Source of the DNA: Bacteroidales bacterium
GTDB lineage: Bacteria; Bacteroidota; Bacteroidia; Bacteroidales; JAIOZK01
DNA: 64,000 bases
Assembly (NCBI GenBank): GCA_021738625.1
Contig: JAIPBS010000003.1
Span: 62,001-126,000 of the forward strand
Reading direction: 5' to 3'
In this document: positions 58,617-63,998 of the stretch, in pieces
How positions within the stretch are numbered: position 1 is the stretch's first letter
Layout of the letters: the number at the start of each line of letters is the position of its first letter
Notes under the pieces: generated by a model
The model's input: only the letters and a program-made list of their open reading frames with translations
The model's database searches: none
What the model was told of the DNA's origin: nothing
Translations under genes and position numbers: made by a program

Positions 58617-59936
58617 TTAAAAGAATGTTCCATAAATCAATCCTGACAATGTTGCCATGATCACCACCAATAAAACATAAACCAGTGTTTTTTGTGTGCC
58701 GATTACCCCCCGTATAACAAGCATGTTAGGCAGCGACAGTGAAGGGCCGGCAAGCAGTAAGGCCAAAGCAGGCCCTTTGCCCATGCCGGCGGCAATCAGC
58801 CCTTGCAAAATGGGCACTTCTGTTAAGGTGGCAAAATACATGAAAGCCCCCACGATGGAAGCAAAAAAGTTGGAGAATACTGAATTTCCACCAACAAGAC
58901 TGGCTACCCATTCGTTTGGAATGATACCGGCCATGGCTGTATCATCGTGTGTCGAACCCAGCAGAAAACCGGCAATCAAAACGCCAATGGCCAGCAAGGG
59001 CATAATTTGTTTGGTGAAATCCCATGTTGAGAGCGTCCACTCTTTGTTATCAGGATCTCTTTTATCTGTTAATGTAATGATGCTTAAGCCTGCAATTCCG
59101 ACGACCATGTGGATGAGCGGGGAGGAACTTAAAAATGCAGACAGGGCGGTTGCCAGGGCGGCAATAATAACATATTGCCATTTCAATTTTAAAATATAGA
59201 TCAATGAAAAAATGAGCAACAACGCAAAACCAGCGGTTATATGCCATTTATTGGACCAAATCCAGTACCAGGTGCCACTTTCCACACCTTCACCAGGTTT
59301 TCCCCAGTTGGCAAAAACCAAAATAAGCACGAGCGTAAAAAAGTGAAATGCAGTTTGCCACATGGGACGCTTTTCCGGTGTTTCGGGGAAGTTTAATTGC
59401 TCTTCTTTTTTAACCTTTTCCTCTTTGCTATAAATGAAGGACATGACAGAACCGATGACCACGGCAAAGACCACAGCTCCTATAATACGTGCCACGCCCA
59501 TTTCAAATCCCAAAATCCGGGCGGTTAAGATAATTGCCAGTATGTTGATGGCAGGACCGGAATATAGAAAGGCGATGGCAGGGCCAAGGCCGGCCCCTCG
59601 TTTGTGAATACTCGAAAACAACGGCAAAATCGTACAGCTACAAACAGCCAGTATGGTTCCTGAAACCGAGGCCACCGTATAGGCTACCCATTTTTTGGCT
59701 TTGGCACCAAAGTATTTCATCACTGCCCCCTGGCTAACAAAAACAGCAATAACGCCTGCAATGAAGAAAGCCGGCAGCAAACATAAAATTACATGTTCCT
59801 GTGCATACCACCTGGTCAGATCAAACATGGCCATGATGGCTTCTTTGAACCTCGCATTATCCAAAGGCATGAAATACGCGAATACGAATACAGCAATAAT
59901 CCACGCCAGTAATTTAAATTCCCTTTTCTTTTCCAT
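58617..59936 (-). CDS. ArsP-like permease (DUF318 family)
   Basis: A 439-residue membrane permease with about ten helices. It belongs to the family of ArsP, which exports trivalent organoarsenicals, and carries the paired-cysteine motif AVCSCTILPLF (Cys99, Cys101). The second half has FFASIVGAFMYFATLTEVPI and GPALALLLAGPSLSLPNML. Proteins annotated as metal efflux permeases share this fold, so the substrate is inferred from the ars context, mainly from arsM, which makes methylarsenicals. It is last in the operon, 51 bp after arsG, and longer than Campylobacter ArsP. Confidence 0.78.
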   Translation of the reverse strand: MEKKREFKLLAWIIAVFVFAYFMPLDNARFKEAIMAMFDLTRWYAQEHVILCLLPAFFIAGVIAVFVSQGAVMKYFGAKAKKWVAYTVASVSGTILAVCSCTILPLFSSIHKRGAGLGPAIAFLYSGPAINILAIILTARILGFEMGVARIIGAVVFAVVIGSVMSFIYSKEEKVKKEEQLNFPETPEKRPMWQTAFHFFTLVLILVFANWGKPGEGVESGTWYWIWSNKWHITAGFALLLIFSLIYILKLKWQYVIIAALATALSAFLSSSPLIHMVVGIAGLSIITLTDKRDPDNKEWTLSTWDFTKQIMPLLAIGVLIAGFLLGSTHDDTAMAGIIPNEWVASLVGGNSVFSNFFASIVGAFMYFATLTEVPILQGLIAAGMGKGPALALLLAGPSLSLPNMLVIRGVIGTQKTLVYVLLVVIMATLSGLIYGTFF

Positions 59937-59987: not shown

Positions 59988-60689
59988 CTACAAATAAATC
60001 ACAATCACATAATACACCCCCACACCAATGAACACCATTGCAATTACGCGCCGGAACCAGATTTCAAATGTTTTCAGGCTGTTGTAAACCTTTCCAACAC
60101 CCGAAACAGTATAGGCTATTAGCCAGGCAAAAATAATCACCGGGATTCCGGTGGCAATGGCAAAAACTACTGGTAGATACAAACCGGAAGTACTGCTTAC
60201 CGTTATCGGGATCAATATGCCAAAATAAAGCACACCGCTGTATGGGCAGAATGCCAGGGCAAAGATTACTCCCAATATCAGCACATCCCAATAAGTATGT
60301 TTTGTTTTATTCTGAAATTTCTTGCTTAAGTTTCCAAGCCCCGGAAATTTTATTTTCAGGATATCAAGCATAAACAGTCCGATTATGATCAGCAAAGGCC
60401 CGATTATTTTCTCACCATACTTTTGAAACCAGCCTGAAATCTCAAATTGGTCGGCTCCAATAAATATGACTACAGCTAAAAGCGTATATGCAATGGCACG
60501 GCCTGCCGTATAGATCAGGCCATTCATAAACACCCTGCGCTTATCTTCCACATCCTTGCTGATAAACCCAATGGCTGTGATATTCGTGGCCATCGGACAT
60601 GGGCTTATGGCTGTCATCAATCCCAGAATAAAAGCCGTAACCACAGGCGATGAACTGTTGCTCATTAAATTTTGCAGAAACGCTTCCAT
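59988..60689 (-). CDS. arsG: ArsG-family membrane protein, CcdA/DsbD-like
   Basis: A 233-residue protein with six helices of the LysE/CcdA fold. Annotated ArsG members are described as aromatic arsenical efflux permeases. The sequence carries SPCPMATN in helix 1 (Cys31) and AFCPYSGVLYFG in helix 4 (Cys148), exactly the placement of the transmembrane thiol pair of CcdA/DsbD. It could therefore be a thiol-electron conduit rather than, or besides, an exporter. It starts one base after the arsF stop, as part of the arsE-arsF-arsG set. Confidence 0.82.
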   Translation of the reverse strand: MEAFLQNLMSNSSSPVVTAFILGLMTAISPCPMATNITAIGFISKDVEDKRRVFMNGLIYTAGRAIAYTLLAVVIFIGADQFEISGWFQKYGEKIIGPLLIIIGLFMLDILKIKFPGLGNLSKKFQNKTKHTYWDVLILGVIFALAFCPYSGVLYFGILIPITVSSTSGLYLPVVFAIATGIPVIIFAWLIAYTVSGVGKVYNSLKTFEIWFRRVIAMVFIGVGVYYVIVIYL

Positions 60690-60690
60690 A

Positions 60691-61101
60691 TTAATTAATC
60701 ATCGGGTCGATCTTTTCCTTTAAAATCTGTTTTAACTTTTCAGGATTATTCCTGGCATTCATAAAGGCTTCATTGGTAAGGTCTACCCTGGTATCGCCGC
60801 CTACAATTAGTAATGTTTGCCCTGACACGCCCAATTCTTCAGCTTTTTGTTCGCCTTCGGTTTCTTCGAGGTTATAAGCATAAAAAGTCACTTTGTCGCC
60901 ATAAAGCTCTTCAACAGCTTCCTTTGATTCTGACTCAACGGCTTTGCAGGTGGCACATCTCCGTTCATTATGAAAATAATAAACCTGCACATCATCTGCT
61001 TTCTTCACCCTTGTGTTTTGGTTCTGATCGCTCTGGCCGGCGCATGAAAAATTCATGCCGGCAAGCACGAATAAAAGAGAAATAATTTTAACTGTTTTCA
61101 T
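60691..61101 (-). CDS. arsF: ArsF-family thioredoxin-like lipoprotein
   Basis: A 136-residue exported protein with a lipoprotein-type signal (LLFVLAGMNFSC, Cys20) and a thioredoxin-like domain carrying RRCATCKAVE (Cys49, Cys52). ArsF relatives are named as subunits of a nitrophenyl-arsenical reducing system, a family-level statement. The periplasmic side and the CxxC motif suit a reducing partner that receives electrons through ArsG. Four bp separate it from arsE. Confidence 0.85.
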   Translation of the reverse strand: MKTVKIISLLFVLAGMNFSCAGQSDQNQNTRVKKADDVQVYYFHNERRCATCKAVESESKEAVEELYGDKVTFYAYNLEETEGEQKAEELGVSGQTLLIVGGDTRVDLTNEAFMNARNNPEKLKQILKEKIDPMIN

Positions 61102-61105
61102 AAGG

Positions 61106-61345
61106 TTATTTGTTATTTGTTAATAATGCATTGAGTTCTTGAGCAGAAGGAACACGGCCCGAAAAAACGACTTTTTCATCAATTACAAGACCGGGTGTTT
61201 TCATGATCCCATATTCCATTATTTTTATAATGTCATTCTCTTTTGTGATATTGGCTTCAATACCTTCTTTTTCAACTGTTTCCCTTGTAAGTTTTTCAAG
61301 AGTTTTACATTTCGGACAACCTGTCCCGAGAATTTTAATTTCCAT
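61106..61345 (-). CDS. arsE: ArsE-like small thioredoxin-fold protein
   Basis: A 79-residue cytosolic protein of the redox-active disulfide protein 2 type: KILGTGCPKCKTLEKL with CPKC at residues 10-13, then the cis-Pro TPGLVIDEKVVFSG. No signal peptide. It is the natural cytosolic electron donor in an ArsE-ArsG-ArsF chain. It starts 32 bp after acr3. Confidence 0.85.
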   Translation of the reverse strand: MEIKILGTGCPKCKTLEKLTRETVEKEGIEANITKENDIIKIMEYGIMKTPGLVIDEKVVFSGRVPSAQELNALLTNNK

Positions 61346-61377: not shown

Positions 61378-62439
61378 TTAAGATACATCTAAAGCACCTT
61401 CCTTTGAAAAATATTTTTCTTTCATTTTTAAAGCGACATTTACCAGGGCGATCAGCACCGGCACTTCCACCAGGGGGCCGATGACCGCTGCAAAGGCTTC
61501 ACCGGAATTAATACCGAAAACAGCCACAGCCACGGCTATGGCCAGTTCAAAGTTGTTGCTTGCCGCTGTGAATGACAACGTGGTGGTTTTTGAATAATCT
61601 GCTCCAAATTTTCTGCTTAAAAAGAACGAAAGGAAAAACATCACCACGAAATAAATAACCAGGGGAATAGCTATCCTGACAACATCAAGTGGTAGCTTAA
61701 CAATATAATCGCCTTTTAACGAAAACATGACATATATCGTGAAAAGTAAAGCAACAAGTGTTAAAGGGCTAATTTTGGGTATAAAATTTTGTTGATACCA
61801 GTTTTTGCTTTTTATCCTGATCAAAGCAAAGCGGGTTATCATGCCTGCAAGAAATGGTATGCCGAGATAGATAAAAACGCTTTCGGCAATTTGCCCCATT
61901 GTTACATCCACGGCGCTGCCTTCCAAGCCGAAATATTCTGGCAATACGGTTATGAACACCCAGGCATAAACCGAAAAGAAAAGCACCTGGAAAATGCTGT
62001 TAAAGGCTACAAGCCCGGCAGCATATTCGGTATCGCCTTTAGCAAGATCATTCCAAACAATTACCATAGCGATGCAGCGTGCCAGCCCGATCAAAATCAA
62101 ACCCACCATGTAATGCGGATAATCATGCAAAAAAGTGATGGCCAGGAAAAACATGAGTACCGGGCCAATGATCCAGTTTTGCACCAAAGAAAGCAATAGT
62201 ATTTTGCGGTTTTTGAAAACGTCTTTTAATTCTTCATATTTGACTTTGGCCAATGGCGGGTACATCATCACAATGAGCCCGATGGCGATGGGGATATTGG
62301 TTGTTCCGCTGCTCATATAGTTCCAAAAATCAGCCATGCCCGGGATCAATCTTCCCGATGCTATTCCAATGGCCATAGCAAAGAAAATCCAAAGTGTAAG
62401 ATAACGGTCCAGAAATGATAATTTCTTTGTTGCACCCAT
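61378..62439 (-). CDS. acr3: ACR3-family arsenite efflux permease
   Basis: A 353-residue, ten-helix arsenite/H+ antiporter that exports As(III) and often Sb(III). The functional Cys is Cys122 in [18 protein letters not shown] (helix 4), and helix 9 contains [24 protein letters not shown]. Both are signatures of the BART/ACR3 family. It completes arsenate detoxification after ArsC. It lies 19 bp after arsM. Confidence 0.95.
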
Positions 62440-62458: not shown

Positions 62459-63265
62459 TTATTTATTTGCTGAAACTGTTATGCTAAAAATCCCTGTTTT
62501 GCTCCTTTTAAAATTCCTTAATTCGTCTAATGTCATGTACTTCAGCAGAAGTGGATTTGGCAATTCAATTTTTTTGTCCTTATGGACTTTAATTTCATTG
62601 AATCCTGCATTTTTTATGATTTCAAGATATTTGTGCTTTTGAATTGCCCCCGAAACACATCCTGCATACATTTCGGCATCCTGCTTGATTTTTTCAGGTA
62701 ACTTCCCTTCAATCACAACATCAGAAATGCAGAAATGTCCTCTTTTCTTTAAAACCCTGAATATTTCACTGAAAGCTTTCTCTTTATCCGGTACAAGGTT
62801 TAAAACACAATTTGAAATAATGACATCATAAGAATCACCTTTCAATGGGATATCTTCGATGTCGCCTTTAACAAATTCAATATTGGGATAACCAGGTCTT
62901 TTATTATTATCAATTGCTTTTTCCACCATTTCATCCGTAAAATCCAAGCCGGTAACTTTACCGCTTTCACCCACTATAGCCCTTACAACAAAGCAATCGT
63001 TCCCGGCCCCGCTTCCTAGATCAAGAACATGGTCCCCCTTTTCAATGCCTGCAAATTCTGTTGGCAGACCACAGCCCAGCCCAAGGTCTGCAGCCGAATT
63101 ATAGCCTTCATTTCGTGTGTAATCTTCACTAAAAATCGCATAATCAACACTTGAGCAGCAATCTGATGTACCGCAACAAGAGGTTTCATTTTGTTGTTTC
63201 TTTGATTGTTGGGCTATTTGACTGTATTTCTCTTTAACAACCGTCTTTAAATTGTTTTTATTCAT
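62459..63265 (-). CDS. arsM: Arsenite S-adenosylmethionine methyltransferase
   Basis: A 268-residue class I methyltransferase that methylates As(III) to mono- and dimethylated species. SAM motif VLDLGSGAGND (residues 80-90); arsenic-site cysteines Cys65 (LGLGCG) and Cys203 (AGCVSGA). A CCGTSDCC cluster (Cys30, 31, 36, 37) near the N-terminus could supply additional thiols. The Cys equivalent to Cys224 of algal ArsM is not visible in the C-terminus. Its ATG overlaps the arsC stop. Confidence 0.93.
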   Translation of the reverse strand: MNKNNLKTVVKEKYSQIAQQSKKQQNETSCCGTSDCCSSVDYAIFSEDYTRNEGYNSAADLGLGCGLPTEFAGIEKGDHVLDLGSGAGNDCFVVRAIVGESGKVTGLDFTDEMVEKAIDNNKRPGYPNIEFVKGDIEDIPLKGDSYDVIISNCVLNLVPDKEKAFSEIFRVLKKRGHFCISDVVIEGKLPEKIKQDAEMYAGCVSGAIQKHKYLEIIKNAGFNEIKVHKDKKIELPNPLLLKYMTLDELRNFKRSKTGIFSITVSANK

Positions 63266-63687
63266 AATGTTGATTTTATTCGTTTGTTATAAAATTCCCG
63301 AAAATCCCTTTTAATCTCGTCGCGTATCCTGCGAAATTCCGATAAAATAAAATCCTCGCTGCCTGTTACTTTTGCCGGGTCTTCAAAGGCAATGTGCAAG
63401 CGGTTTTTCACCTTAGCGGTAAATACGGGGCAACTTTCTTTGGCGCCATTGCAAACTGTAATGACATAGTCAAATTCCTCATCAAGAAATTCGGATACGG
63501 CTTTCGGACTGTTCCGGCTCAAATCTATTCCTTCCTCTTTCATTACCTGAACAGCCCCGGGATGAACCCGTTTACCCGGCTGTGTGCCCGCCGAAAAAAC
63601 ATTTAGGCGACGATCAAATGTTTTTAGAAATCCCCCGGCCATTTGACTGCGACAACTATTTCCCGTACATAGGATTAATATTTTCAT
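63262..63687 (-). CDS. arsC: Arsenate reductase, thioredoxin-coupled (LMW phosphatase fold)
   Basis: A 141-residue enzyme that reduces As(V) to As(III). P-loop CTGNSCRS (Cys7-Arg13) and the redox pair Cys79 and Cys86 (VCNGAKESCPVF) identify the Staphylococcus/Bacillus thioredoxin-linked class, distinct from the glutaredoxin-linked R773 class. Its ATG overlaps the arsR stop (ATGA). Confidence 0.95.
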   Translation of the reverse strand: MKILILCTGNSCRSQMAGGFLKTFDRRLNVFSAGTQPGKRVHPGAVQVMKEEGIDLSRNSPKAVSEFLDEEFDYVITVCNGAKESCPVFTAKVKNRLHIAFEDPAKVTGSEDFILSEFRRIRDEIKRDFREFYNKRIKSTL

Positions 63688-63998
63688 AATTCCTGATCTG
63701 CGTTAAACAATTGATGAAACATCTCCTTTGCCTTTTTCCAGTTTTCGCGATTCAGACAATATTTTATATAAGGAGGTTCGATTTCCCCCTGGATCAGCCC
63801 GGCATATTTCAGCTCTTTCAAATGTTGCGATAAGGTGGAACGTCCAACTGGCAATTCATCAACAAGGTCACCGCTATAACAGCAAGCATTCATCCTGGAT
63901 AACTTTTGTAAAATATACAAACGAACAGGATGCCCCATTGCCTTGGTAATCCTTGCCATTTCTTTAATATCTTCTGACAGTTCAATCTTATTATCCAT
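63684..63998 (-). CDS. arsR: ArsR/SmtB family arsenic-responsive repressor
   Basis: A 104-residue winged-helix repressor. A vicinal cysteine pair NACCYSGDLV (Cys39, Cys40) lies beside the recognition helix (VGRSTLSQHLKELKYAGLI, about residues 51-69) and would bind As(III) to release DNA. It is first in the minus-strand ars operon and begins two bases inside the right edge; its promoter and operator lie outside the window. Confidence 0.93.
   Translation of the reverse strand: MDNKIELSEDIKEMARITKAMGHPVRLYILQKLSRMNACCYSGDLVDELPVGRSTLSQHLKELKYAGLIQGEIEPPYIKYCLNRENWKKAKEMFHQLFNADQEL

Follow-up and report, generated by a model that had tools for sequence, protein, structure and literature searches.

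The arsEFG genes of Bacteroidota arsenic resistance operons as a candidate transmembrane thiol relay

ArsE, ArsF, and ArsG of a Bacteroidales arsenic resistance operon are best explained as a transmembrane thiol relay dedicated to the operon and operating in the manner of CcdA and DsbD, and we consider this explanation fairly probable. In such a relay, reduced ArsE would pass two electrons to the C31/C148 cysteine pair of ArsG, and from this pair they would go on to ArsF on the outer side of the inner membrane. Less certain is the end of the chain, where ArsF with its dithiol kept reduced may act on arsenic chemistry, whether by reducing an arsenical or a thiol partner or by holding a trivalent arsenical. 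Export itself would fall to the neighboring permease and Acr3, and ArsG would be a supply of reductant rather than a pump, a role through which the relay could raise resistance.

A sequence-only reading of this DNA had proposed ArsG as a redox conduit from ArsE to ArsF. The proposal is supported by conserved cysteines, topology, a CcdA-like fold, a fixed gene trio, a separate permease, and the replacement of partners by a thioredoxin and CcdA in other operons, but the flow of electrons is something that we infer from these features, and ArsG has turned out not to be CcdA proper.

The operon and its thioredoxin-like proteins

The genes are listed in Table 1 with their positions in the window, by which we mean the whole 64,000-nucleotide stretch of DNA that was analyzed. 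The intergenic gaps are 4 bases between arsE and arsF and 1 base between arsF and arsG. Contiguous genes for a CPKC protein, an exported CATC protein, and a membrane protein with C31 and C148 had been described from the sequence alone, and both the coordinates and the family scores agree with that description. The ArsP_1-type permease is probably the exporter paired with arsEFG. An ordinary DsbD is also encoded in the same genome (L002).

Table 1. Genes of the ars operon, with positions in the window and family scores
Gene	Position	Strand	Product and family evidence
ArsP_1-type permease	58617..59936	minus	439 aa, directly downstream of arsG; PF03773 241 bits
arsG	59988..60689	minus	DsbD/CcdA-superfamily membrane protein, six-helix, 233 aa; NF040495 318 bits (cut-off 200)
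arsF	60691..61101	minus	exported thioredoxin-fold protein, 136 aa, probable lipoprotein (Cys20); NF040494 96.8 bits (cut-off 60)
arsE	61106..61345	minus	cytosolic thioredoxin-like protein, 79 aa, C10-P-K-C13, cis-Pro51; TIGR00412 (MTH895/ArsE) 110.5 bits (cut-off 62)
acr3	61378..62439	minus	arsenite efflux transporter, same operon; TIGR00832 464 bits
arsM	62459..63265	minus	arsenite methyltransferase, same operon; NF008823 334 bits
arsC	63262..63687	minus	LMW-phosphatase-type arsenate reductase; PF01451 above GA, TIGR02691 117 bits (below the 174 cut-off)
arsR-type regulator	63684..63998	minus	operon head; PF01022 40.5 bits

The solved structure nearest to ArsE is MTH895 (1ilo). Among 138 ArsE homologs the CxxC is kept in 97-99%, with three proteins carrying a CAC motif among the exceptions, and the cis-proline is kept in 100%. 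A hydrophobic N-terminus is absent from the ArsE described here and is found in 3% of 119 homologs.

ArsF has an N-terminal signal segment ending in NFSC20 and the motif FHxxxRC49-A-T-C52. The N-terminus is hydrophobic in 98% of 129 homologs, and the CxxC is kept in 98-100% of 150, the exceptions being truncated rows, CCxAxAC paralogs that align with a shift, and an additional ArsF-like copy encoded apart from ArsG (L108). The ArsF model (pLDDT 85.4) predicts a thioredoxin fold (Z 11.7 over 86 residues) in which the CxxC opens helix 1. Fold and CxxC are thus those of a canonical exported thioredoxin of the TlpA/ResA/Trx type, but the cis-proline is missing. Its site is occupied by Gln95 in the ArsF described here, where the third core strand of the model begins at T96, and across 151 ArsF sequences by Gln in 64%, Ser in 25%, Ala in 5%, and Pro in 1/151. 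The proline is also lost where ArsF sits with CcdA (L179) or apart from ArsG (L193, L194). The cis-proline hinders metal binding by CxxC motifs, according to Su et al. 2007 (cited in a passage of PMC2757866). An ArsF lacking this residue may be able to bind and retain a trivalent arsenical, or its reducing power may be changed; either would need ArsF to be kept reduced, and the relay would supply that. Reduction of a periplasmic arsenical by ArsF, as proposed from the sequence alone, is then one possible end of the chain among several, and an ArsF without cis-proline is no ordinary thioredoxin.

Other ArsF-like proteins were encountered alongside these. A second exported one, with a CCxAxAC motif and a score below the NF040494 cut-off, occurs at L095:467-868, L034:7697-8095, L112, L120, L125, L136, and L147, and at L095 its gene lies between arsF and arsG; with cysteines spaced as in CCxAxAC, a metal(loid) site seems likelier than a redox-active CxxC. 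Directly upstream of arsF-arsG-arsE, L149:520-1029 encodes an exported TlpA/StoA-like protein whose CxxC is replaced by CCPNN. A search of viral contigs for diverse ArsG gave one locus, a putatively viral IMG/VR contig (L172:2-936) with the end of an ArsF-like gene (SPS, with Pro at the cis-Pro site) followed by an ArsG-like gene.

The placement of ArsE and ArsF bears on the published account of these genes, which has ArsE and ArsF acting together to reduce the nitro group of roxarsone or nitarsone and ArsG exporting the amino compound that results. In NCBIfam, ArsG goes under the name of efflux permease and ArsF under that of nitroreductase subunit, and a 2022 paper (PMC9144182) puts ArsG among efflux transporters and has ArsE and ArsF confer organoarsenical resistance. 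The signal segment that is nearly universal in ArsF is almost never found in ArsE, however, and N-termini that differ in this way would place the two proteins on opposite sides of the membrane, though the published names treat them as one activity. An NCBIfam/Pfam profile scan of ArsE and ArsF detected no domain for flavin, NAD(P)H, a metal, or any other cofactor, which makes a direct nitroreductase activity of ArsF doubtful. Six-electron reduction of a nitro group by only two small CxxC proteins is chemically unlikely. The invariance of the two cysteines of ArsG, described below, would also need another reason, and we regard the nitroreductase and pump account as improbable.

ArsG and its relationship to CcdA

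ArsG scores above the Pfam gathering thresholds for DsbD_2 (PF13386, 74.6 versus 24.9) and DsbD_TM (PF02683, 43.6 versus 27.1), and an ArsG above the family cut-off is present in 207/393 sampled genomes of the order Bacteroidales. The protein contains exactly two cysteines, C31 within SPCP and C148 within FCPYSG. Loci were collected both with a profile over whole genomes and with a back-translated pattern in GTDB genomes. In the profile-found set, which comes from Bacteroidota only and was gathered with no cysteine required in the search, the sequences covering each site have Cys at C31 in 65/65 and at C148 in 66/66; with all loci taken together, the counts are 146/146 and 147/147. Of the 80 pattern-found loci, 17 matched just one of the cysteine patterns and yet contain both cysteines, which together with the profile-found loci indicates that the conservation is not a product of the search pattern. 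Conservation of the pair across ArsG homologs, on which the idea of a conduit had been made to depend, holds in every locus that covers the sites.

The AlphaFold2 model of ArsG is of middling confidence (pLDDT 70.6, pTM 0.62). It predicts a helix 1 split into residues 15-28 and 30-44, with the break at S29 just ahead of P30-C31, and a helix 4 split into 133-145 and 149-165, with the break at 146-148. Net loop charges give six helices with the N-terminus outside and loops 1-2, 3-4, and 5-6 inside. The top match of the model in a Foldseek comparison with the PDB is Thermus CcdA 5vkv (probability 0.99, TM ~0.5, E 0.11), and CcdA is also the sole PDB sequence match of ArsG (E 0.025). A VIA comparison of the model with 5vkv gives a Z of 6.6 over 196 residues, a score that unrelated helical proteins also reach. 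The CcdA-like fold anticipated for ArsG is borne out to the extent that 5vkv is the best match of the predicted structure among solved ones. Kinship with NqrE/RnfA (VIA Z 7.2-7.4) was considered and dropped, as these scores are at the level of generic helical matches.

Much of this architecture is held in common with the CcdA, ScsB, and DsbD conduits, which have six helices with the N-terminus outside, a conserved cysteine where helix 1 is broken and another in helix 4, and a cytosolic thioredoxin-like donor and an exported thioredoxin-like partner encoded alongside. In helix 1, the SPC of ArsG aligns with the SPC of CcdA, the cysteine following the proline in both. Helix 4 differs. An alignment of 48 membrane proteins has an invariant helix-4 proline, and the cysteine stands before it in 24/24 ArsG rows (FCP) and in 4/4 rows from a copper context, versus after it (PC) in 20/20 CcdA-type rows, so that the helix-4 cysteine of ArsG is two residues away from the position in CcdA. 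A tree splits ArsG and the copper-context clade from the CcdA types with support of 100/99; several branches on the ArsG side are long, and the placement of the copper-context rows there is unsure. Judged by alignment and tree, ArsG is a sister clade of CcdA and not CcdA proper, and its partner ArsF differs as well in having no cis-proline.

The copper-context proteins are the nearest sister clade of ArsG and share its PC in helix 1 and FCP in helix 4. They are encoded at L142:3962-4696, L181:2893-3645, L182:2956-3693, and L183:2761-3624, on plasmids labelled Bacillota, Deinococcus, and Stenotrophomonas, under the name "sulfite exporter TauE/SafE family," and the one at L142 scores 137.8 bits against NF040495, below the cut-off. 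Their genes mostly adjoin those for CopC, cupredoxin, or similar proteins, and no thioredoxin, ArsE, or ArsF partners were seen among the neighbors of the four. With no thioredoxin partner seen beside the sister clade, the cysteine pair may have a part in handling soft metals directly.

The main rival to the relay is that what passes along the cysteine pairs from thiol to thiol is As(III) or a trivalent organoarsenical and no electrons. ArsE would load the arsenical, C31/C148 would bind it as a dithiolate, and the cis-Pro-less ArsF would receive it outside, making ArsG a thiol-dependent permease. The copper neighborhoods of the PC/CP sister clade and its lack of thioredoxin partners suit this idea, as do the efflux permease name of ArsG, the loss in ArsF of a residue that is reportedly unfavorable to metal binding at CxxC motifs, and the His-rich tails of some divergent ArsG-like proteins. 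The complete retention of cis-proline in ArsE argues the other way. Such a hand-off path, or a device with the double function of electron supply and arsenical transport, seems rather unlikely to us; if it exists, the PC/CP clade would form a new class of carriers that handle soft metal(loid)s within the membrane, copper among them.

The His-rich C-terminal tails are found at L161:1444-2319, L162:125-958, L164:1414-2286, and L155:1468-2241, in proteins that keep both cysteines; at L161 and L162 ArsE is encoded directly upstream and ArsF is missing. The long open frames at L161, L162, and L164 were considered as fusions and ruled out, being ArsG-like proteins with His-rich tails. A search for natural ArsE-ArsG or ArsF-ArsG fusions found none.

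Gene neighborhoods and partner exchange

Among the 80 pattern-found loci, the most frequent gene order is ArsR-ArsE-ArsF-ArsG-permease. ArsF is present in 78/80, ArsE in 75/80, an ArsR-type gene in 71/80, and an ArsP_1-type permease in 77/80, the shorter type of permease likewise belonging to PF03773. The gene immediately upstream of arsG is arsF in 76/80. In a phylum-wide sample of 296 genomes, ArsF is found in 8, and these include all 6 that have ArsG (hypergeometric 3e-11, a value that ignores relatedness); the association of ArsF with ArsG exceeds chance. The permease directly follows arsG in 67/80 loci, which indicates that a separate exporter is available, and this speaks against ArsG itself being the thiol-dependent permease of the hand-off path.

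ArsE and ArsG also occur without ArsF at L158, L161, L162, L168, and L169. ArsE and ArsF occur without ArsG once, in a permease-ArsE-ArsF-Acr3 operon of genome G196 (L193:3165-6256), where the ArsG profile finds nothing closer than a protein of the size of DsbD. At L158:2451-3659 a NosR/NapH-like polyferredoxin membrane protein is encoded directly upstream of ArsE and ArsG, and is a possible alternative source of electrons.

In eight other Bacteroidota loci (L173-L180), ArsE is encoded near a CcdA relative that has P-C in both helices, and ars genes (arsR, arsC, arsM, acr3 or permease) are present in the stretch examined at 8/8. An exported thioredoxin lies between ArsE and CcdA in six of them, identified by the search in L173, L174, L175, L178, and L180 and by its NCIPC sequence in L177. 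The same thioredoxin is visible in the raw translation of a seventh locus, L179, and none was picked up between ArsE and CcdA by the search at L176. These thioredoxins have NCIPC or KCIPC and, where the row is complete, a cis-proline (LIPTQ or LIPSQ). L179 is a mosaic with the order permease-ArsE-ArsF-ArsE-Trx-CcdA, and its ArsF is over the family cut-off (93 bits). ArsE thus stays constant while the membrane and exported members swap, as would be predicted by a common role in electron supply. This exchange of partners, read from gene content, is the strongest new evidence for the relay, and replacement by a canonical CcdA and a thioredoxin with cis-proline suits the passage of electrons better than that of arsenicals.

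A further possibility is that ArsE works mostly for the cytosolic ArsC of thioredoxin type, with ArsF and ArsG maintaining periplasmic thiols in general, such as by shielding those of the permease or of lipoproteins from arsenic, and acting on no specific arsenical substrate. Donation from thioredoxin to ArsC was favored by Castillo and Saier 2010 in the portion of their paper dealing with such operons (PMC2963123), arsC is part of the operon described here, and the genome has an ordinary DsbD that would fit the same picture. Yet arsC is found within 5 kb of ArsEFG in just 32/80 loci, far from the near-constancy of the permease, and some divergent loci with ArsE and ArsG have no arsC in the short stretch examined. 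We consider this division of labor very unlikely.

Several observations count against the relay itself: the middling confidence of the ArsG model and its undistinguished VIA score, the shifted cysteine of helix 4, the copper sister clade, and the missing cis-proline of ArsF. To these can be added the database names (permease, nitroreductase subunit) and the ArsE-ArsF pair beside Acr3 without ArsG in G196.

Earlier proposals and significance

A relay of this kind has a precedent. Castillo and Saier 2010 (PMC2963123), in the portion of the paper at issue, described CcdA, thioredoxin, and redox-active disulfide protein 2 in ars operons and suggested electron donation to the CcdA homolog. The layout is that of ArsEFG, and the donor is by name of the same family as ArsE (TIGR00412 is "redox_disulf_2"). 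In that portion the genes are tied to ArsC and transmembrane flow is thought less likely, and there is no mention of a distinction between ArsG and CcdA, of the cis-Pro loss in ArsF, or of the linkage to a permease. The relay had been presented as a distinct view of the system; its general form was anticipated in 2010, while the link of ArsEFG to it through partner exchange is new. New as well are the helix-4 cysteine shift with the copper sister clade, the family-wide loss of cis-proline in ArsF, and the near-constant permease.

All three proteins described here meet the cut-offs of the ArsEFG families of the organoarsenical literature (NF040494/NF040495 for ArsF and ArsG). The source that NCBIfam follows in naming them nitroreductase subunits and an efflux permease is reportedly Chen, Zhang and Rosen 2019. 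Chen et al. 2019 is among the references of the 2022 paper (PMC9144182). The SAO and Tso selenoprotein systems (SaoE, SaoT, TsoB; reviewed in PMC13188914) share with this locus the detoxification of thiophilic metals and a set of components resembling thioredoxin, DsbD, and the SaoE permease, to which the permease described here is a weak match. Scores are, however, far below the SAO/Tso family cut-offs, and the proteins contain Cys, no in-frame stop codon being read through.

If the relay is correct, a family labelled in databases as an arsenical pump would be a membrane supply of reductant, and surveys of organoarsenical resistance would be misled by wrongly labelled transporter genes. The DsbD/CcdA superfamily is also split into two clades by one cysteine shifted across a proline, offering a simple test of the role of this site. 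Arsenic resistance in many genomes of the order (207/393) would then have an extracytoplasmic thiol arm that is absent from current models.
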